Assembly (NCBI RefSeq): GCF_016616885.1
Contig: NZ_CP067102.1
Span: 4,678,501 to 4,742,500 of the forward strand
Direction of reading: 5' to 3'
Origin: Bradyrhizobium diazoefficiens
GTDB taxonomy: Bacteria; Pseudomonadota; Alphaproteobacteria; Rhizobiales; Xanthobacteraceae
DNA: 64,000 bases
The notes under the pieces are model-generated. The model saw only the letters and a list, made by a program, of their open reading frames with translations, was not told where the DNA came from and ran no database searches. This document shows positions 3,792-16,423 of the stretch, piece after piece; positions within the stretch are counted from its first letter, which is position 1, and the number at the start of each line of letters is the position of its first letter. A program made the translations under genes and the position numbers.

Positions 3792-6700
3792 CTAACGCCG
3801 CGCCAGGCTGCAACCGCTCGACAGCGGCCTTGCCGCTCCCGTCGGGCTGTCGCCGGACTGCGCCGACGGCAGCTCGTCGATCGGCGTGTTCTGTTTGCCG
3901 GTGTTGAACTCGAAGATCTTGCGGAACACGCCGGGCACCATCGCCGAGATCGGATTGACGCGCATCACGGGAGCCGCAGGCGTGCCGACGACCTCGTAGG
4001 TGACGCCGATCAACCCCTCCTTGTCGCCGCCGCCGAGAAAGAGGCCGAACAACGGGATCTGGCCGAAGATGTTGTTCACGCCATACATCGGCACGAAGGT
4101 GCCGCTCATGCAGACCTGGTTGCCGGGATAGTCAATCGACCCCTCGATGGTGGCGCCGATCATCGGCCCCTTGACCAGGCCATCGCGGACCGTGAGCGCG
4201 CCGTTCTGCCGGGTGAACTCCGCACGCAAGGCGCTGAAGGAAACGCCGCCGCCGCCCGGCGTGCCGTTCGGCGCGCCCGCGGCCACGCGCTCGAGCTGCG
4301 CCTCGCCCTTCACCGTGAAGTCGCGCACGTTGATGAGGCCCTCGCGCGCCGTGGTCGGCTCGGACGTCGGCGGCTCCATCGCCACCACCATCTGGCCGCC
4401 GATCGCCTTGGTATAGGTGTCGGTGAACTTCAGCAGCGATCCGGCATCATTGGTCTGGAGATAGATCACCTCGCGGCTGCCCTGCGCACGCCCGCCGCGC
4501 AGATCGGCGGCCACCTGCGTGTTCTGACCGATCCTGCCGCTCAGCGAGAACGCCTTGATCGCCCCGCTGCGTTTCGACATCTTGGCATCGACGCTGCGCA
4601 TCGCTTCGCCGTTGAAGCCCGCGACCGTACCGAGCTTCACGTCGATGTCGAAATCGACGTTCTTCAGCTTGCTCTTGCCGTCGTCCTTGGAATTGCCTGA
4701 GATCGCCGACTTCAGGAAGCCGCGGCCGTCGAATACGTCGCCACGCATCGTGCCGCGCACCACGCCGTCCTGACCGCGCTCCACCTTCAGCGACGTCTTG
4801 TCGCCGTCGGAGGGCGAATAGACCGGGAAGTTCGCGTTCATGAGGTCGCCGTTGGGGTCGACTTCCAGCGAGCCCTTGATCGAGGCGCCGCCGCCTTCGA
4901 TGACGATGTCCTCGAGCCGCGTCGATTGTGCCGTCGGCACCACCTTGAACGTCGCCTTGCTCGACTTGCCTGGCAGCTTGACCCAGCCGGGAAGAATGTT
5001 GTCGAGCTTGACTGAAGTCAGGTCCGCCTCGATGCCGAGCTTCGTTGTCTGCTCGGGTCCACCGGCAATCTTGCCGGATACCTTGACCGGGACTGACCCG
5101 CTGACGGCAGGACTGAGGTCGAAACCCAGGCGCGCACGGCCGGCATCATCAAGCGTCGTCTGCAGCTTGACATCCGCATCGCCATCGGTCGCCTTGCGGT
5201 AGTCGAGCGAGGCCGCCTGCCCGTTGATCTTGACGTCGCCCTTGACCTGGTAGCCCTGGTTGTTGGCGACGATCTTGAGATTGTTGGCCTCGAGCTTCTG
5301 GTTCATCACCAGCTTGTCGGCGGCAAAGCCGTTGAGGTCGGCGGTGACGGCGTAGACGGTGTCCGCCTTGGTCAGCTCGCCCTTGACCGGCAAGCCGAGC
5401 TGGATGTTGGCCGTGAACGTTCCCTTGCTGGTGTTGGGATCGACGACGGTCGACGACAGATCGCTCAGCCGATCATTGGAGAGCATTTCGGCCGCCGCCG
5501 GCACCGGACCATCGACACGGAAGCGGGTCCGCGAGGGCGAGGGTTTCGGCGCCATGTCCGGCACCTCGAAAGTGAAGTCGGAGATCGTGATCTTGCGGCC
5601 CGCAGGCGTATCGGCAATGCCTTGGGCGATATTCACGGTGGCGGTGCGTCCCGTCACGTGTGCCTTCAGATCGGCGTCGTGCACCACCGGCATGCCGTCC
5701 ACGGGACGAACCGCGACGCCGCTCGCCATGATGTTGACCGACAGGCCGTCATCGGGAATCGGCGGTCCCTTGCGCGGAAGGTTGCGCGTTGGCGAGTTGA
5801 TGCCGACCTCGATGCGCTGGAGCGTGCCGCGCTCGATCCGCTCGATCACCCATTGGCGCAATTCGGGCACCACCAGCGTCGGCCACATCCGCTTCAGTGC
5901 TGAGGCCGACATCGGCGTGCCCGCAAAGCCCAGCGTCAGGCGCGGCTCGCCGGAATAGTCGATCGCGCCGGTGCCGGCGACGCCGATCTCGCCGTTGGAG
6001 ATGTCGGCCTGCGTCAGCAGCATGCGCTTGTGATCGGTGTCGAAGCGGAAGCCGATCGCGATGCGGTTGAAGACCAGCGGCGGCTCGTTGTCGATACCGC
6101 CGAGCAGGATCGAGCCGCCGCTGAAGCCGAGCTGCCAGTCGTTGGTGGTGCCGTTGGGCGGCTCGAGATGGGCGAGCAGCGTCAGGCGATTGGCGCCCGC
6201 AAGGATCTTGAACGGTGCGACCAGCACCCGCCGTCCCGCATCCCACTCGACGTTGATCTCGGCCGAGTCGATCGCCATCGGATAATCGGGCGTATCGGTG
6301 TCGATGATGTTGCCCGCACCGATCGTGACCTTGCCGCGGAAGAATGTCGGCACGCCGTCGCGGCCGAGCTCGCCCTTGAGCTCGCCGGTCAAAGGCAGGT
6401 CGGCCGTATAGGTCAGGTCCTTCACCCGCAGCGCCAGCAGAATGTTGGCGGTCGACACCTTGTCGGCGCGGATATCGATCGAGCGCACGCCATTCTCGCT
6501 CGGTCCGATCGTGGCGCGCAGCGACCACGGGCGCGCGCCCTCTTCGCCGAAGCTGAGCGCGACGCCGCCATGGGTCGGCCGGCGCAGGCTGAGCGTGATG
6601 TTCTCAAACGTCCATTTGCTGCCGCGCTGCTGATCGTCGACGATCAGATTGCCGTTCTTGAGACCGATCTCGTTGAGGTTCTGGCCGTCGAGGCCGGTCA

Positions 6701-10004: not shown

Positions 10005-11189
10005 TCAGCGCCGACCGCCGCCCATCCCACCGCCGGGACCACCGAAGCCGCCACCACCCATTCCGCCACCGGGGCCCATCGGCCCACCGGGCGAGCCCAT
10101 GCCGCCGGGGCCTGACGGGCCACTCGGTGCCGTGGGCGCGGAGCCGGGATTGCCACCGGGATTCGATCCAGGCACAGACGGTCCGGCCGGTGGGCTGTTG
10201 CCCGGGCGCGGCGTGCCGCGATCCGGATGCATGATCGAACCGCCGGGCGACTGGCCGGGATGACCGCCGCCGGGCTGCGGCCCGCCCGGTGCTGGGCCGA
10301 TCGCCTGAGTCGACTCGACCTGCAGCCCGCGCGAGCGATCGAACACGCCATTGACGACCATGCGCGCTTCGCCCGCCGCCGGGCCAAAGCGTGAGCTGTC
10401 ACGGGCCATCAAGCCGGAGCCGAGCTGCAGGCTGGAGCCTGAGCGCTGCACATAGGCCTCGATCGAGAGGCGGCTCGCGCCGACGAGATCCGAGAAATCG
10501 TCGATGCGCGTGCGCGCGGCCTGCATCGCGCCCTGGCTCGCGCTGCCCTCGATCTGGACGCGCTGGCCGACCAGCAAGGGATCGACGCCGGCGAGTTTCA
10601 AGGCGCCAATATGCAGCCCGTCGGGTCCGCGCTCGACCAGGCCCGTGACGCGCTCGGCGGCGGCGTGGCGCGGCTCGACGAGGCTTGCAACGATCACACC
10701 ATCGGTCCGGCGCAGGCCGTAGACGGCAACCTGCGTGCCGACGCGAAGCTTGCTGTCCTTGCTGCCCGCGACGATCTTCTGGCCGAGCACAGTCAGTTCA
10801 TTGCCCTTCAGCGATTCGATCGGCCCGGAGACTTCGCTCGCGATCGCGATGTTGCGGGTGACGAGCGTGCCGTCGGCCTGCCGCGTCGCAACCACGCGGG
10901 CGAGCTGGCCGATGCGCAGCGCCTTCGGGCTTGCCGCCTCACCGTCGATCCGCACCGGCACGTCGCTCGCATAGCTGACGCGCTCGCCATTGACGTAGAT
11001 GCTGCCGAAACGCTGGATCACGCCGACGATGCCGGTGCCGCCGATGCCATGATCGTCACCGCGCGTGATTCCGGTGCCGCCGATGCCCTGGTCGGTGCCG
11101 CGCTTGACCTGCGCGCGCGCAATCGCCGTTCCGGCGAGCCAGAATCCGGTCAGCAGCAGACGGCGGGAGATCAGCGGCGGCCGGCTCAT
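10005..11189 (-). CDS. DUF5666 secreted protein with Gly/Pro-rich tail
   Basis: A 394-residue protein with a Tat-like signal (SRRLLLTGFWLAGTAIARA), a short repeat of GIGGTGI motifs at about 35-55, several tandem DUF5666 beta modules (about 60-290), and a Gly/Pro/Met-rich disordered tail. DUF5666 domains are small beta barrels of unknown function found in exported proteins. The start overlaps the stop of the DUF6502 gene by four bases (ATGA), so the two are translationally coupled and form an operon. The role is unknown; a cell-surface or periplasmic location is likely. Confidence 0.8.
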   Translation of the reverse strand: MSRPPLISRRLLLTGFWLAGTAIARAQVKRGTDQGIGGTGITRGDDHGIGGTGIVGVIQRFGSIYVNGERVSYASDVPVRIDGEAASPKALRIGQLARVVATRQADGTLVTRNIAIASEVSGPIESLKGNELTVLGQKIVAGSKDSKLRVGTQVAVYGLRRTDGVIVASLVEPRHAAAERVTGLVERGPDGLHIGALKLAGVDPLLVGQRVQIEGSASQGAMQAARTRIDDFSDLVGASRLSIEAYVQRSGSSLQLGSGLMARDSSRFGPAAGEARMVVNGVFDRSRGLQVESTQAIGPAPGGPQPGGGHPGQSPGGSIMHPDRGTPRPGNSPPAGPSVPGSNPGGNPGSAPTAPSGPSGPGGMGSPGGPMGPGGGMGGGGFGGPGGGMGGGRR

Positions 11190-12076
11190 GACGAGCTGCC
11201 CTCTTTGCCGCCGTCCTTACTGGCTTCCTTGGCCTCGCCCTCCTCATCGGCATCTTCGCTGTAGATGTAGATGCCGAAATTCCAGCGGGCGTCACCGCCC
11301 TTGTCTTTGGCGAGCGCACGGTTGGCCTCGCGGTTGGCAGTCTTCAGCGCATCCATCGCTAGCTCGCGCGAGCGCGCTTCGAGCCGCTTCGCAAGCTTCG
11401 GCGAGATATTGTTGTAATGGACCGCGCGTTCGAGGAAGCGCGGCGCCGGCCCCGATACGTTCTCGGCGGCGGCCGCGATATGGTCGTGCAGATTGCGGCC
11501 GAGATAATGCCATTTGCTGTCATCCGCGCCACTCGGGACGAACGCCGCCTCCACCAGCTCGATCTCGTCGGCCGCGTTGATGGTGACGAGCTGGCGGTCG
11601 ACCCATTCGTCGAGCACCGCACGCGGGCGCACGTCCTTGGTGACGGAGGCCACGAGTTGCTCGAATGACGGCGCATCGCCCTCGGCGGTGCGCGGCAAAG
11701 CCAGCGGCTCGCCCTTCGCGTCGGTGAATTCGGGCGCGGCGAGCCAGCGCGCGATCACCGCGCTCGTCAGCGACAGCGCCGCCGGGGTCTCGTGCACGGG
11801 CGCGCCGGCGCCGCGCAGCCGCGCCACCTCCTTGCGGTGGATGCCGGTAAGAAGGCTGACGCGGCTGTCGGTCTGCTCTTTGCCTTCGAGCGCGAAATCA
11901 TGCTCGGCGACGTTGACGAAGAGCTCGCGGAGCAGCTGCGCCAGGGCCGGAAAGGTCATGCCGCTGCGGATGCAGAGCCGCACGAGCGGTCGCAGCAGCC
12001 GCGCCAGCGGCGCGTGCAGCTTCGCGGCGGCATTCGGCTCTGGAGCCGCCGCTTTGGGCCCGGACTTGGCATTCAT
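11186..12076 (-). CDS. DUF6502 family protein
   Basis: A 296-residue soluble protein recognised as DUF6502 from its N-terminal helical part (LLRPLVRLCIRSGMTFPALAQ, then QTDSRVSLLTGIHRKEV), which reads like a winged-helix or HTH arrangement. No function is established for the family; the HTH-like start suggests a regulator, which is inference. It is the first gene of a two-gene operon with the DUF5666 gene. The start at MNAKSG was preferred over an upstream GTG-type extension that would cover the divergent promoter region. Confidence 0.72.
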   Translation of the reverse strand: MNAKSGPKAAAPEPNAAAKLHAPLARLLRPLVRLCIRSGMTFPALAQLLRELFVNVAEHDFALEGKEQTDSRVSLLTGIHRKEVARLRGAGAPVHETPAALSLTSAVIARWLAAPEFTDAKGEPLALPRTAEGDAPSFEQLVASVTKDVRPRAVLDEWVDRQLVTINAADEIELVEAAFVPSGADDSKWHYLGRNLHDHIAAAAENVSGPAPRFLERAVHYNNISPKLAKRLEARSRELAMDALKTANREANRALAKDKGGDARWNFGIYIYSEDADEEGEAKEASKDGGKEGSSS

Positions 12077-12100: not shown

Positions 12101-12160
12101 GTGGGACACAATCCCACATTTCTTCAGTTCGCGATTGACGTGGTAAATTTTCCCACATAT
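12101..12160. promoter_or_regulatory. Repeated TGTGGGA sites in divergent intergenic region
   Basis: Between the DUF6502 gene and the polysaccharide operon, a GTGGGA/TCCCAC inverted repeat (12101-12117) continues into CCCACAT, and TCCCACATAT recurs at 12151. On the minus strand this reads as two ATGTGGGA direct repeats about 39 bp apart. Placed just upstream of the DUF6502 start, it could be an operator for that gene or its divergent neighbour. Confidence 0.35.
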
Positions 12161-12202
12161 ACGGAACCCCACTGAGGGCGCGACTTGAAGGGACAAACAC
12201 CC

Positions 12203-12367
12203 ATGGCTGACCGCTTGGTCTGCAATTCCAGTTCACTGCGCGCTGTGCGGTTTCCCGACCGGAGCCGGGCCGGCGCGATCGAGCCGATGCTGCCGGCGCT
12301 GCTGCGCGGCGTGATCTTCATCTTGGTGCTGGCCGCACCGTTCGTCGCAGCACTGCTCGCGGGCTGA
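12203..12367 (+). CDS. Small single-span membrane protein
   Basis: A 54-residue protein with a polar N-terminus and one C-terminal hydrophobic helix (LLRGVIFILVLAAPFVAALLAG). GAAGGGA lies about 10 bases before the ATG. It ends only seven bases before the start of the glycosyltransferase-permease gene, which itself has no convincing ribosome binding site, so this frame may serve as a translational coupler as well as encode a membrane peptide. No family recognised. Confidence 0.55.
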   Translation: MADRLVCNSSSLRAVRFPDRSRAGAIEPMLPALLRGVIFILVLAAPFVAALLAG

Positions 12368-12374
12368 CACCATC

Positions 12375-14303
12375 ATGCATCACACCAGCTCTCCCCCGCG
12401 CCGTCTGTCGGTGCTGCATATCTTCAAGGTCTACTATCCCGACCTGTTCGGCGGCACACTCACGGCGATCCGCGACATCTGCGCCAGCCTGAAGGACACC
12501 TTCGCCTCCGCCGTGCTGACCTGCTCGCAATCGGCCGACCAGCGCGAGATCATCGTCAACGACGTGCCGGTGGAGCGCGTCCGCTCGTTCGGCAATGTGA
12601 TGTCGCTGCCGGCCGCCCCCGCCTATCCCTGGCGGCTGTGGCGAAAGATTGCCGAGCACGATCTGCTGGCGCTGCATGCGCCCTTCCCGCTCGCGGACCT
12701 CGTCTTCGCCCTCGGCTTCGGCCGCAACCGGCCGCTGGTCGTGCACTGGCACGCCGACATCGTCACCCATGCGGGCCTGCGCTGGTTCATCGAGCCCCTG
12801 ATGCGGCGGACGCTGCGCCGCGCCAAGGCGATCATCGTCTCCGATCGCGTGCTGGTCGACGAGACGCCGCTGCTGCGGGAGTTCGAAGACAAATGCCATG
12901 TCGTTCCGTTCGGCATCGACACCAGTGTCTATGACTGGCCGAAGATCGATCCGCACCACGTCAACGATCGCGGCCGCCTCGTGCTCGCCTGCGGCCGGCT
13001 CGTGCCCTACAAGGGCTACGACGTGCTGATCCGCGCCGCCGTCAATCGCAAGTTCGAGGCCTGGATTATCGGCGAAGGTGCCGAGCGGCCCCGGCTCGAG
13101 CAGCTGATCGGCGAGCTTGGCCTCGGCGACCGCGTTCGCCTGCTCGGCTCCGTCAGTGATTGCGAACGCATCAAGCTGATGTGCCTGGCCGACGTCTTCG
13201 TGATGCCGTCCATCACCAGTGCCGAGACGTTCGGCCTCTCCCAGCTCGAGGCCATGGCCGCCGGCCGCCCCGTGGTGAACACCGCACTCGACACGGCGGT
13301 GCCGCGTGTCGCCCGCCACGGCATGGAGGCGATCACTGTGCCGCCGGCCGACGCCGAGAAGCTCGGTGAAGCCATCGATGCACTGATCAGTGATCCCGAG
13401 CGCCGCCGCCGCATGGGGCTTTCGGCCCGGACCCGCGCGGTGAGCCGCTATTCCGCCACCGCCTTCAAGAACGGCATGGAGACAGTCTACCGCAATGCCG
13501 TCGCCGTGCCCTCCCATGAGGCGGCGCCCGTCGCCGAGGCGCCGCAGGCAACGGGTTGGCTGGACAGCTTGCGAATTGCGGCGGCGCTGGCCTGGTCCGA
13601 TATGCGCCACCGCTATGTGCGCTCGCTGCTCGGTCCGTTCTGGATGTCGCTGCAGATGGCGATCGTGGTCGCGGTGCTCGGCTCGGTCATCGGCCAGATG
13701 TCGAATTCCGACACGATGGCGCGGCTGCCGATGCTGGCCCTGTCGATGACGGCCTGGACCTTTCTCAACAGTGTGGTGCTCGATGCGACCACGGCGCTGC
13801 AGAACTCAGCAAGCCTGATCCGAGACCGGGCACTGCCGCCGGTGATCTTCCTTCTGCAGTGCACGTTCCGCCAGGGCCTGTTCGCCCTGCACAATGCCTG
13901 CGTCCCCCTCCTGCTCTGGCTGCTGCTCACGCCGCACGATCTCTCCGGCGCGCTCGCGGCGCTCCCGGGCCTCTCGCTGTTCGTGATCTGCACCTTCGGC
14001 CTCAGCCTCGTCCTCGGCGCGCTGGCGACGCGGTATCGCGACCTCAAGCCGATCATCGAATCCACGCTGATGCTCGCCTTCCTCGCCTCGCCCGTGATCT
14101 GGTCCGCCGACATGATCAATCACCGCTCGACCGTGATGCGGCTCAACCCGCTGACCCATCTGTTCGCGGTGTGGCGCGAGCCGCTGGCCGGCGGCCATGT
14201 CGATGCGACCAGCATCATCTATGTCCTCGTCGCGCTGGCGCTGCTGCTCTGCGCGAGCGTGCTGACGCTGGTCCATCTGCGTAAAGCTGCGTTCTGGATC
14301 TGA
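12375..14303 (+). CDS. GT4 glycosyltransferase fused to ABC-2 polysaccharide export permease
   Basis: A 642-residue fusion. Residues 1 to about 375 form a GT-B glycosyltransferase of family 4, with the usual acceptor-side start (LHIFKVYYPDLFGG) and the nucleotide-sugar motif ETFGLSQLEAMAAGRPVV. After a short linker, residues about 394-642 are an ABC-2 permease of the Wzm/KpsM type, starting at WSDMRHRYVRSLLGPFW, with six hydrophobic segments. It would add a sugar and form the membrane channel for a lipid-linked glycan. The matching ATPase gene starts three bases after its stop. The frame is continuous, so this is a real fusion unless the assembly is wrong. Confidence 0.9.
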   Translation: MHHTSSPPRRLSVLHIFKVYYPDLFGGTLTAIRDICASLKDTFASAVLTCSQSADQREIIVNDVPVERVRSFGNVMSLPAAPAYPWRLWRKIAEHDLLALHAPFPLADLVFALGFGRNRPLVVHWHADIVTHAGLRWFIEPLMRRTLRRAKAIIVSDRVLVDETPLLREFEDKCHVVPFGIDTSVYDWPKIDPHHVNDRGRLVLACGRLVPYKGYDVLIRAAVNRKFEAWIIGEGAERPRLEQLIGELGLGDRVRLLGSVSDCERIKLMCLADVFVMPSITSAETFGLSQLEAMAAGRPVVNTALDTAVPRVARHGMEAITVPPADAEKLGEAIDALISDPERRRRMGLSARTRAVSRYSATAFKNGMETVYRNAVAVPSHEAAPVAEAPQATGWLDSLRIAAALAWSDMRHRYVRSLLGPFWMSLQMAIVVAVLGSVIGQMSNSDTMARLPMLALSMTAWTFLNSVVLDATTALQNSASLIRDRALPPVIFLLQCTFRQGLFALHNACVPLLLWLLLTPHDLSGALAALPGLSLFVICTFGLSLVLGALATRYRDLKPIIESTLMLAFLASPVIWSADMINHRSTVMRLNPLTHLFAVWREPLAGGHVDATSIIYVLVALALLLCASVLTLVHLRKAAFWI

Positions 14304-14306
14304 CCG

Positions 14307-15047
14307 ATGGCCTCGATCACCCTGCGCAATGTCTGTCTCGATTATCCCCTCTACGGCGCCTACGACTTCTCGCTGAAGCGGCGGCTGCTCGGCCACCTCA
14401 TCCGCGAAAAGGGCGAGATGCGGATCATCCGCGCTGTCGACAACGTCACCATCGAAGCCGAAGCCGGTGCGCGCATCGGGCTCGCCGGTCCCAACGGCTC
14501 CGGCAAGTCGACGCTGCTGCGGCTGATCGCAGGCGTCTATCCGCCGAGCAGCGGCTGCGTCGCGATCAGCGGCAATGTCGTGCCCCTGCTCGGCCTCAAT
14601 GCCGGTGTGAATCTCGACTTCATCGCCGAGGACAACATCGCCCTGTTGCTGCGGATCAGCGGCCGCAAGCCGACCCGCACGGTGATCGACGAGATCTGGG
14701 CGTTCACCGAGCTCGAAGAGCGCATGCAGCGGCTGCCGTTGCGGATGTTCTCCTCGGGCATGCTGATGCGCGTGCTGTTTGCGACCGCGACCGCCTTTCC
14801 GGCCGACATCCTCCTGCTCGACGAATGGCTGAGCGTGGTCGACGAGCACTTTGCCGAGAAGGCCGAGCGGCGGCTGCAGAACCTGGTCTCGCAGGCCGCG
14901 ATCGTGATCATCGCCTCGCACGACCAGCCGCTGTTGCGCCGCACCTGCACCAGCATCATCAATCTCGATCACGGCCGCATCGCCTCGACCGTCACGGTCG
15001 AGCCGCCGTCGCCCCTTTCCTTCGAGCTCCGCGAGAAACGCGCATGA
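14307..15047 (+). CDS. ABC transporter ATP-binding protein, polysaccharide export (Wzt/KpsT-like)
   Basis: A 246-residue nucleotide-binding domain. Walker A is GPNGSGKST (61-69), the signature is the FSSGM variant (148-152) seen in polysaccharide exporters, and Walker B is ILLLDE (168-173). The protein lacks the extra C-terminal carbohydrate-binding domain of Wzt proteins that recognise O-antigen, so it resembles the short KpsT type. It should power the permease half of the preceding fusion protein. Its stop overlaps the next start (ATGA). Confidence 0.92.
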   Translation: MASITLRNVCLDYPLYGAYDFSLKRRLLGHLIREKGEMRIIRAVDNVTIEAEAGARIGLAGPNGSGKSTLLRLIAGVYPPSSGCVAISGNVVPLLGLNAGVNLDFIAEDNIALLLRISGRKPTRTVIDEIWAFTELEERMQRLPLRMFSSGMLMRVLFATATAFPADILLLDEWLSVVDEHFAEKAERRLQNLVSQAAIVIIASHDQPLLRRTCTSIINLDHGRIASTVTVEPPSPLSFELREKRA

Positions 15048-16423
15048 AGCAGAACATCCTTGTCGTCTCCGAGGCGCTCGGCGAGCCCAACCACAAGCGC
15101 GGCATCTTCCATTTCACCCGCGAATTGATGCGCTCGCTCGCCGCCGAGGGCCATGACCTCACCCTGCTGGTCGAGACCACGCGGCGCTACCGCAAGCTGC
15201 GCCGGCGCGAGCGCCGCACCAAACTGTTCCCGACGCAGTCGCGCAATATCGAGCTTTTGGCGCTCTATCGGTTCCTCGACGAAATCAATATGAGCGAGCC
15301 GGTGACGCGCAGCGGCCTGCGGCGCACGCTCGACTGGCTCCGCCACAAGGCCACCATGTCGGTGTCGTGGGACTATGTCGCCTGCTTCCTGCGTGCGGTC
15401 GGCCTGCGCGGCCTGCACGCGCGGCTGATCGAGAACAGGACCGCGGCGCTCGAATACATCCCGCCGGATCTGCGCCACCTCGAACTGTTCCGCGACTTCC
15501 AGCTCGAGCCTGGATTCTACAGCTATCAGGACTCCTCGGCCTTCCTGCTGCTGCCGCCGCCGCGGATCGACGCGCGCGACTATGACGTCATCGTCATCGA
15601 CACGCCGACACGGGTGACGGTGAGGCGCAGGCCGGATGCCAAGGTGATCTGCGTCGTGCACGATCTGCTGCCGCTCACCGATCTCAAGCTGAGCGATGTG
15701 GCCACGCGGCTGTTCCTGTCACGGCTACTCACCAGCCTGCGTCAGGCCGACGAGCTCGCCTTCGTTTCAAACTATAGCATGATGCGGTTCAGGGACCTGT
15801 TACCGCAATTTGCGCACCTGCCGGCGCGGGTCGTGTATCCCCGCACCCGGTTCGACGCCCCGGATGTCCTGCACCTCCCAGCCCCGTCGGGGCGTCCGGG
15901 GCGGCCGAGCTTTGTCGTCATCGTCTCGAACGAGCCGCGCAAGAATGTCGCGACCGTCATTCGCGCGTTCCGCAACATCCCCCAGGCCGATCTGGTGGTG
16001 ATCGGCCTGGCCGGCCAGATCAACCGGATGCGCAATCTTCCGCCAAACGTTCGTTTCGCCGGCTATGTCGACGAGCAGGAGAAGGCTGCGCTGATCGCGG
16101 AGGCACATGGGCTGATCATGCCGAGTTTCGCCGAAGGTTTTGGCGTGCCGATCATCGAGGCGCTGGCTGCGAACACGCCGGTGCTCTGCTCCGACATCGC
16201 CGTGTTCCGCGAGGTCGCGGGCGAGCTCGCCGATTATTTCGATCCGTTCGCGACCGAGTCGATCGTGGCCTCCGTCACCCGCGTGATGGCGCGGCAGGAG
16301 GAGTGTCGTGGCCGAATCCGGGCGCGCCGCTCCGAGCTTGCCGAGCGTTTCGGCTACCAGACCCAGGCCCGCGATTTCCTCGGACAATACCTGGCCCCGG
16401 AACGCCTCGTCGCGGCACAATAG
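15044..16423 (+). CDS. GT4 family glycosyltransferase
   Basis: A 459-residue soluble or peripheral GT-B glycosyltransferase. The C-terminal half carries a clear family 4 signature (PSFAEGFGVPIIEALAANTPV), preceded by the nucleotide-binding fold around VIVSNEPRKNVATVIRAF. The N-terminal half (SEALGEPNHKRGIFHFTREL) fits an acceptor-binding domain, with a long Arg-rich insertion at about 45-80. The start is coupled to the ATPase by a four-base overlap. It probably adds a residue to the glycan exported by this operon; donor and acceptor are unknown. Confidence 0.88.
   Translation: MKQNILVVSEALGEPNHKRGIFHFTRELMRSLAAEGHDLTLLVETTRRYRKLRRRERRTKLFPTQSRNIELLALYRFLDEINMSEPVTRSGLRRTLDWLRHKATMSVSWDYVACFLRAVGLRGLHARLIENRTAALEYIPPDLRHLELFRDFQLEPGFYSYQDSSAFLLLPPPRIDARDYDVIVIDTPTRVTVRRRPDAKVICVVHDLLPLTDLKLSDVATRLFLSRLLTSLRQADELAFVSNYSMMRFRDLLPQFAHLPARVVYPRTRFDAPDVLHLPAPSGRPGRPSFVVIVSNEPRKNVATVIRAFRNIPQADLVVIGLAGQINRMRNLPPNVRFAGYVDEQEKAALIAEAHGLIMPSFAEGFGVPIIEALAANTPVLCSDIAVFREVAGELADYFDPFATESIVASVTRVMARQEECRGRIRARRSELAERFGYQTQARDFLGQYLAPERLVAAQ

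Follow-up and report, generated by a model that had tools for sequence, protein, structure and literature searches.

Genes and features of the locus

The locus described here lies in a stretch of 64,000 nucleotides of Bradyrhizobium diazoefficiens DNA, which we refer to as the window, and is made up of four plus strand genes that form an operon. The first of these (12203..12367) is a small open reading frame of 54 amino acids without a family assignment, in which hydropathy predicts a single hydrophobic membrane segment at residues 36–54. The second (12375..14303) is one continuous reading frame of 642 amino acids in which Pfam recognises both a GT4 glycosyltransferase (GT) domain and an ABC-2 permease domain. 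The GT4 half, of the GT-B type, takes up residues 1–377 (12375..13505), with the domain itself spanning approximately residues 8–377, and carries a conserved E284-x7-E292 pair together with conserved R208 and K213. A linker of residues 378–394 (13506..13556), disordered in the structural model and variable in length, leads to the Wzm-type permease half at residues 395–642 (13557..14303), in which a helix at 395–415 is followed by L419-G420...W423. The third gene (14307..15047) encodes a Wzt-type ATPase of 246 amino acids, while the fourth (15044..16423) encodes a second GT4 enzyme of 459 amino acids, GTb, a conserved neighbour whose inferred start overlaps the stop codon of the ATPase gene (ATGA).

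A preliminary description of this DNA had proposed the same arrangement and it holds up well: a full GT4 enzyme and a full permease in one frame are confirmed by the open reading frame, by Pfam and by fold prediction, the export ATPase and the second GT4 behind them by Pfam, and the membrane protein in front of them by the hydropathy of the small open reading frame. The same description noted that the ATPase is without the carbohydrate-recognition domain of Wzt, which agrees with its short length and with Pfam, where only families of the ABC and P-loop type were returned.

On the minus strand a divergent DUF6502 gene (11186..12076, start codon inferred) encodes a candidate local regulator, and behind it is a gene for a DUF5666 protein (10005..11189), a co-conserved neighbour. 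Downstream of the operon a gene for a periplasmic binding protein is found on the opposite strand. By family none of these flanking genes is a glycan gene, and no enzymes for the first sugar or for nucleotide sugars were recognised among the eight window genes examined. The operon genes and DUF6502 are adjacent in 16 of 16 long loci, and the binding-protein gene is downstream in 13 of these. The small open reading frame is recognisable in 32 of 36 fused loci; approximately 500 bases separate it from the fusion in L037 (5103–5603) and L038 (8795–9311), compared to about ten in most others. The genome from which the window is taken also carries nodC, nodI and nodJ.

Spread and origin of the fused frame

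The fused frame is present in 92 of 265 Bradyrhizobium genomes and contains an internal stop in none of them, the 92 full-length orthologues including one (G393) that is cut by a contig end. A strong match was obtained in 94 of the 265 genomes, 92 with both halves and two with the GT half only. A scan of named records confirmed 93 stretches, and the best 80 of these 93 were kept to give 69 loci; 63 are fused, all of them open over at least 595 codons, and six are unfused. The preliminary description had named a stop or frameshift at the linker in relatives as a sign of two genes merged by error, and none was encountered in the 92 orthologues or in the 63 named fused loci. That a sequencing or assembly error has merged two genes, or that internal initiation generates a separate permease, is hardly credible: codon 410 is capable of acting as a start in 33 of 34 rows (ATG, with one GTG), so that a separate permease of 233 amino acids is possible by sequence in most rows, and a few records (P0133, P0145, P0152) are annotated as such, but the identical fusion recurs in 92 of the 265 genomes, codon 410 falls inside the predicted interface helix at 395–415 and L040 has a non-GTG valine codon there, and a conserved start is absent from the linker. 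The assembly error in particular was rejected on the basis of the 92 full-length orthologues without a stop. Taken together, the sequence comparisons support a fusion that is real and old, with two halves that look functional.

The search for GT4–ABC2 fusions and their neighbours suggested in the preliminary description returned the fusion with conserved neighbours in the genus and in Methylocapsa. The laboratory strain BTAi1 (L189) is one of the Bradyrhizobium carriers of the locus. In Methylocapsa sp. S129 (L191) the fusion, ATPase, second GT and DUF6502 are in the same order as in the window, and the ATPase, GTb and DUF6502 are 62%, 54% and 66% identical respectively. Other fused loci that are not named as Bradyrhizobium include a Bradyrhizobiaceae MAG (L171) and a record titled Frankia sp. 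RB7 (L166); the latter carries a Bradyrhizobium locus and is probably mislabelled. In a sample of 341 genomes from the family 18 are fused, including one with another genus label (G153), and 35 more have only distant matches, nearly all to the GT half; one of these 35 (G307) matches both halves with a single TGA between them, that is, as two genes in one frame. In a sample of 397 genomes from the order the fusion was found only in members of the genus. A sample of 398 genomes from the phylum gave a Wzm match in 44, the window's own included, and GTa or GTb matched none of the four other Wzm matches with a frame above 400 amino acids (L133, L134, L135, L141), in a test that would miss GTs of other families. 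A length-restricted permease search gave PF00534 with PF01061 throughout the 120 of 307 matches listed, and among those 120 the matches that name an organism are all from Bradyrhizobium.

In other genera of the family the GT half has its homologue in a gene of its own ahead of wzm and wzt, with exceptions such as L077, where wzm and wzt precede the GT; in L084, L089, L091 and L093 no Wzm match was found beside the GT. In unfused relatives gt and wzm are adjacent, with gaps of −4, 27, 31, 38, 48, 114, 116 and 121 nt in eight of ten loci, a set of ten in which L090 has a doubtful start and L083 yielded none. L074 has both genes in a shared frame, separated by one TGA and 27 nt.

A tree of the GT half with 52 rows places the 36 fused rows and the two GT-only rows in one clade (100/100), apart from the 14 unfused rows, and would need one origin of the fusion followed by two losses of the transporter half. 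The end branches of the GT-only rows, at 0.67 and 0.47 against a median of 0.082, suggest that the GT half loses constraint once the transporter is lost, an argument that is weak for L136 because the fused rows L081 (0.41) and L137 (0.35) are also long-branched. In the permease and ATPase trees the fused rows stay together, and the transporter genes that accompany the unfused GTs are not placed next to them; the fused-operon ATPase falls in with L116 and L117, which belong to other families. Since the transporter half is not closest to the Wzm and Wzt of the unfused GT relatives, the two halves may have come from different gene clusters. All of these trees were built from tblastn-matched stretches in which internal stops were read as X, with unfused rows picked by their matches to the GT half, and the tree program warned of long branches in the GT-half, permease and ATPase trees.

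Two genomes keep the GT half alone in this slot as an open frame (L042 6852–8069 and L136 5597–6853), so that it may have a use of its own. Read by eye, the end of the GT in L042 runs into sequence that the window has past the second GT. A third genome (G023, L119 6082–6864) holds a decayed remnant of the operon consisting of DUF6502, the small open reading frame and the broken start of a GT. Conversely, P0133 (233 amino acids, B. liaoningense, long contig) is a permease without an intact GT, and the metagenomic P0150, P0153 and P0158 are permeases with a degraded GT remnant; it seems that the GT half was broken in some lineages, and the fusion is therefore not indispensable everywhere. P0150, P0153, P0158 and P0159 are 67–71% identical to the window permease, and the degraded GT remnant in front of them is arginine-rich. 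In GC and GC3 content the operon differs little from the neighbour genes compared, and hence gives no sign of a recent transfer of the operon in the window's genome.

The two halves, the linker and known exporters

In 34 aligned orthologues the linker varies in both length and sequence while its frame stays open, and there is no conserved in-frame start codon within it. Median pairwise dN/dS values (Nei–Gojobori, pairs with dS of 0.05–0.8) are 0.186 for the GT half (427 of 561 pairs), 0.786 for the linker (168 of 561 pairs) and 0.174 for the permease half (492 of 561 pairs). Both halves are therefore kept by purifying selection, while the linker, nearly free yet in frame, looks like a flexible tether. 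Using a diverse alignment of 31 sequences, AlphaFold2 predicted two largely confident domains, with residues 381–392 at a pLDDT below 50; a model from a too uniform alignment (mean pLDDT 53.9) was set aside. The permease half of the model superposes on Mycobacterium abscessus Wzm and the GT half on GT-B enzymes, from a list of structural matches that is dominated by the GT half and says little on other relatives of the permease.

The GT half has the two-domain GT-B fold with its E-x7-E motif, and residues G26, G27, H124, H126, R208, K213, E284 and E292 are invariant across all 64 sequences, and this speaks for an enzyme rather than a mere receptor. The permease half has the predicted fold of a Wzm-type ABC-2 permease, with L419 in 63 of 64 sequences (isoleucine in one) and G420, P421, F422 and W423 in all 64. 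By analogy with Leu23 and Trp27 of AaWzm, as described in the accessible part of PMC6379404, the leucine of the LG-loop and the tryptophan that follows it before TM1 are both present. In the ATPase the Walker A (GPNGSGKST), signature (FSSGM) and Walker B (ILLLDEW) motifs are kept at each position in at least 97% of 35 rows, and a conserved stretch, DYPLYGAYD.S.KRR, sits where the gate helix would be expected. The ABC domain spans residues 45–175 and PF00005 is the only family above its cut-off; by Pfam a C-terminal carbohydrate-binding domain (CBD) is absent from the 246 residues, and the ATPase is not of the CBD type.

The best NCBIfam matches of both transporter subunits are the galactan-type Wzm and Wzt of Klebsiella pneumoniae O1/O2 (NF050109 and NF050108), at 141.3 and 176.4 bits, which is far below the cut-offs of 380 and 400 bits for these equivalogs. 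The tested features of the broad Wzm/Wzt family are present, and the galactan equivalog cut-offs are not reached. The Klebsiella system and the window are alike in having an ATPase without a CBD, and differ in that the GT is part of the permease chain in the window only. The closest known kind is that of the galactan-type Wzm/Wzt exporters without a CBD. Within the accessible text of PMC11231755 the Klebsiella O1/O2 transporter is reported to work without this domain, with chain extension coupled to export. The permease chain of the M. abscessus Wzm–Wzt (9qfx) comprises 307 amino acids and its match covers only residues 402–637 of the fusion. The Aquifex aeolicus WzmWzt and E. coli O9a-type exporters have the IF helix, LG-loop and ATPase layout in common with the window (PMC6379404), but recognise a capped chain through the CBD of Wzt (PMC9445017), the domain absent in the window; both sources are cited here for their accessible parts.

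The unfused gt-wzm-wzt loci L074, L075, L080 and L092 have the same gene order, GTs that are 40–43% identical to that of the window and, in L074, a short ATPase, but here the genes are separate and the Wzm and Wzt are only 27–31% and 35–37% identical. The three of these loci that were tested (L074, L080, L092) adjoin genes of the GDP-mannose-dehydratase/epimerase families. In cellulose synthase and NodC-type synthases the polymerising enzyme and the channel also share one chain, which is of the GT2 type and works without an ABC ATPase. The window by contrast combines a GT4 with an ABC exporter, and is at most analogous to these channel-forming synthases rather than one of them.

A literature search, mostly of papers outside subscription, found no description of a GT–Wzm fusion, which fits the statement in the preliminary description that no described system with such a layout was known to it. 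The architecture is already visible in database names (“ABC-type polysaccharide/polyol phosphate export permease/glycosyltransferase ...”); no experiment was found.

Possible functions and local control

The reading that we favour, at a probability of roughly 0.55, is that the locus encodes an exporter whose permease is covalently joined to one of the two GT4 enzymes that assemble the glycan, a lipid-linked chain with undecaprenyl-PP as its probable carrier. For transporters of this family the accessible part of PMC6379404 describes a lipid-linked glycan that is assembled to full length on the cytoplasmic side and proposed to enter Wzm at the gate helix and LG-loop. By homology the complex would consist of two Wzm halves and two Wzt ATPases and would carry two tethered GT domains on its cytoplasmic side, each on a flexible linker of approximately 20–30 residues placed just before the interface helix and LG-loop, the proposed site of chain entry. 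The tethered GT would add sugar to the carrier-linked chain at the channel entrance and GTb would add the other residue or residues; among the NCBIfam matches of the GTs that might name a substrate, EpsE and BshA included, none comes near its cut-off. A GT-to-channel ratio fixed at 1:1 would tie elongation to export, in parallel to what is reported for the CBD-less Klebsiella O2a system, and the fusion would make this tie permanent. Coupling by tethering is likely, and the simplest reading would be a galactan-like coupled system with the 1:1 ratio fixed by the fusion, for which we infer the dimer, the orientation and the coupling itself.

In CBD-less ABC glycan export the coupling of growth to export has so far rested on complexes and stoichiometry, and a natural covalent fusion fixes the stoichiometry. 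The arrangement could tie the making of a sugar chain to its export. The fusion is a ready construct for biochemistry and cryo-EM, and splitting it can put the coupling model to the test. The fusion further draws attention to a surface-glycan locus, apparently uncharacterised, in about a third of the genomes (92 of 265) of a genus of plant symbionts.

More tentatively, the locus could encode an integrated synthase-translocase, in which two tethered GT4 domains sit at the channel mouth and elongate the lipid-linked chain as it enters, so that polymerisation and export would be obligatorily one process; this would be a counterpart of the channel-forming synthases, under local control by DUF6502 acting on a unique palindrome. 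It is possible, but somewhat doubtful, that the fusion is passive, with genes of one pathway merged by the loss of a stop and a soluble-type GT4 held in ratio and place without mechanistic coupling. Such a merger is consistent with the adjacent gt and wzm genes of unfused relatives, with the shared frame in L074, with a linker that evolves almost freely and with the two genomes that keep the GT alone. However, a stop in a free linker would seem easy to acquire if the fusion were neutral, yet none of the 92 orthologues is split, and the GT-only copies are long-branched.

We consider it unlikely that the locus is the ordinary O-antigen exporter of the strain and the fusion a detail of it. Searched with its Wzm half, the window's genome indeed gave no match at E ≤ 1 apart from this locus. 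Of the five other PF01061 loci three are above the cut-offs of other NCBIfam families (NodJ, alcohol ABC permease, PRK15066); of the remaining two, one is RbbA-like but under the cut-off and the other is without an NCBIfam match. Against this, a second Wzm-like match that lacks a GT match lies elsewhere in at least 9 of 18 fused genomes, which means that O-antigen export need not run through this locus, and G153 has an unfused gt-wzm-wzt locus beside GDP-mannose-dehydratase family genes in addition to the fused one. The gene set of the operon beside DUF6502 is constant over the 16 long loci, whereas, according to the accessible part of PMC4070871, two Bradyrhizobium strains do not have the same genes in their O-antigen clusters. 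Seven Wzy_C (PF04932) matches above cut-off in the window's genome make a Wzx/Wzy route possible.

It is quite improbable that the GT domain is mainly a module for substrate recognition or gating that replaces the CBD of Wzt. The preliminary description had suggested, from the missing recognition domain of the ATPase, that recognition could sit in the fused GT, and the short ATPase with PF00005 alone above cut-off, together with a GT placed ahead of the helix running to the channel entrance, would suit such a role. This idea is weakened by the short ATPases of the unfused L074 (258 amino acids) and L116 (248 amino acids) and by the Klebsiella O1/O2 transporter, also without a CBD in the accessible text of PMC11231755, from which it follows that the absence of this domain calls for no substitute; the conserved catalytic residues also speak against it.

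For the control of the operon, the region between it and the divergent DUF6502 gene offers a candidate. An exact inverted repeat, GTGGGA-N5-TCCCAC (12101..12117), occurs only once in the 8,085,095-base (8.09-Mb) genome, where the reversed control pattern occurs 0 times. A second copy with one mismatch (12140..12156) falls inside the 17-nt spacer between TTGACG (12135–12140) and TATACG (12158–12163), a putative promoter that was read by eye and was not returned by a consensus scan. Of the 63 named fused loci, 62 contain both palindromes, in 50 cases at a distance of 39 bases, while L169 has neither within its 500-base flank. The exact palindrome persists in loci reduced to DUF6502 and remnants (L042, L119, L136). 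As the palindrome at 12101..12117 scores as terminator-like, one of 4 such sites where shuffled sequences predict 1.7, it could be a terminator; we prefer a candidate operator in view of its position between two divergent genes and its repetition at a constant distance.

DUF6502 is single-copy in the window's genome and is absent from 16 of 18 congeners without a full-length fusion; the same literature search, mostly of papers outside subscription, found no mention of it. We propose DUF6502 as a candidate local transcription regulator, and the divergent gene and the once-only palindrome together suggest local regulation of the operon. Two loci have two exact copies of the palindrome approximately 690 bases apart upstream of the fusion, at 4310 and 4995 in L039 and at 4150 and 4840 in L040. 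The DUF6502 domain, of unknown function, accompanies the fusion operon, in Methylocapsa as well as in Bradyrhizobium.
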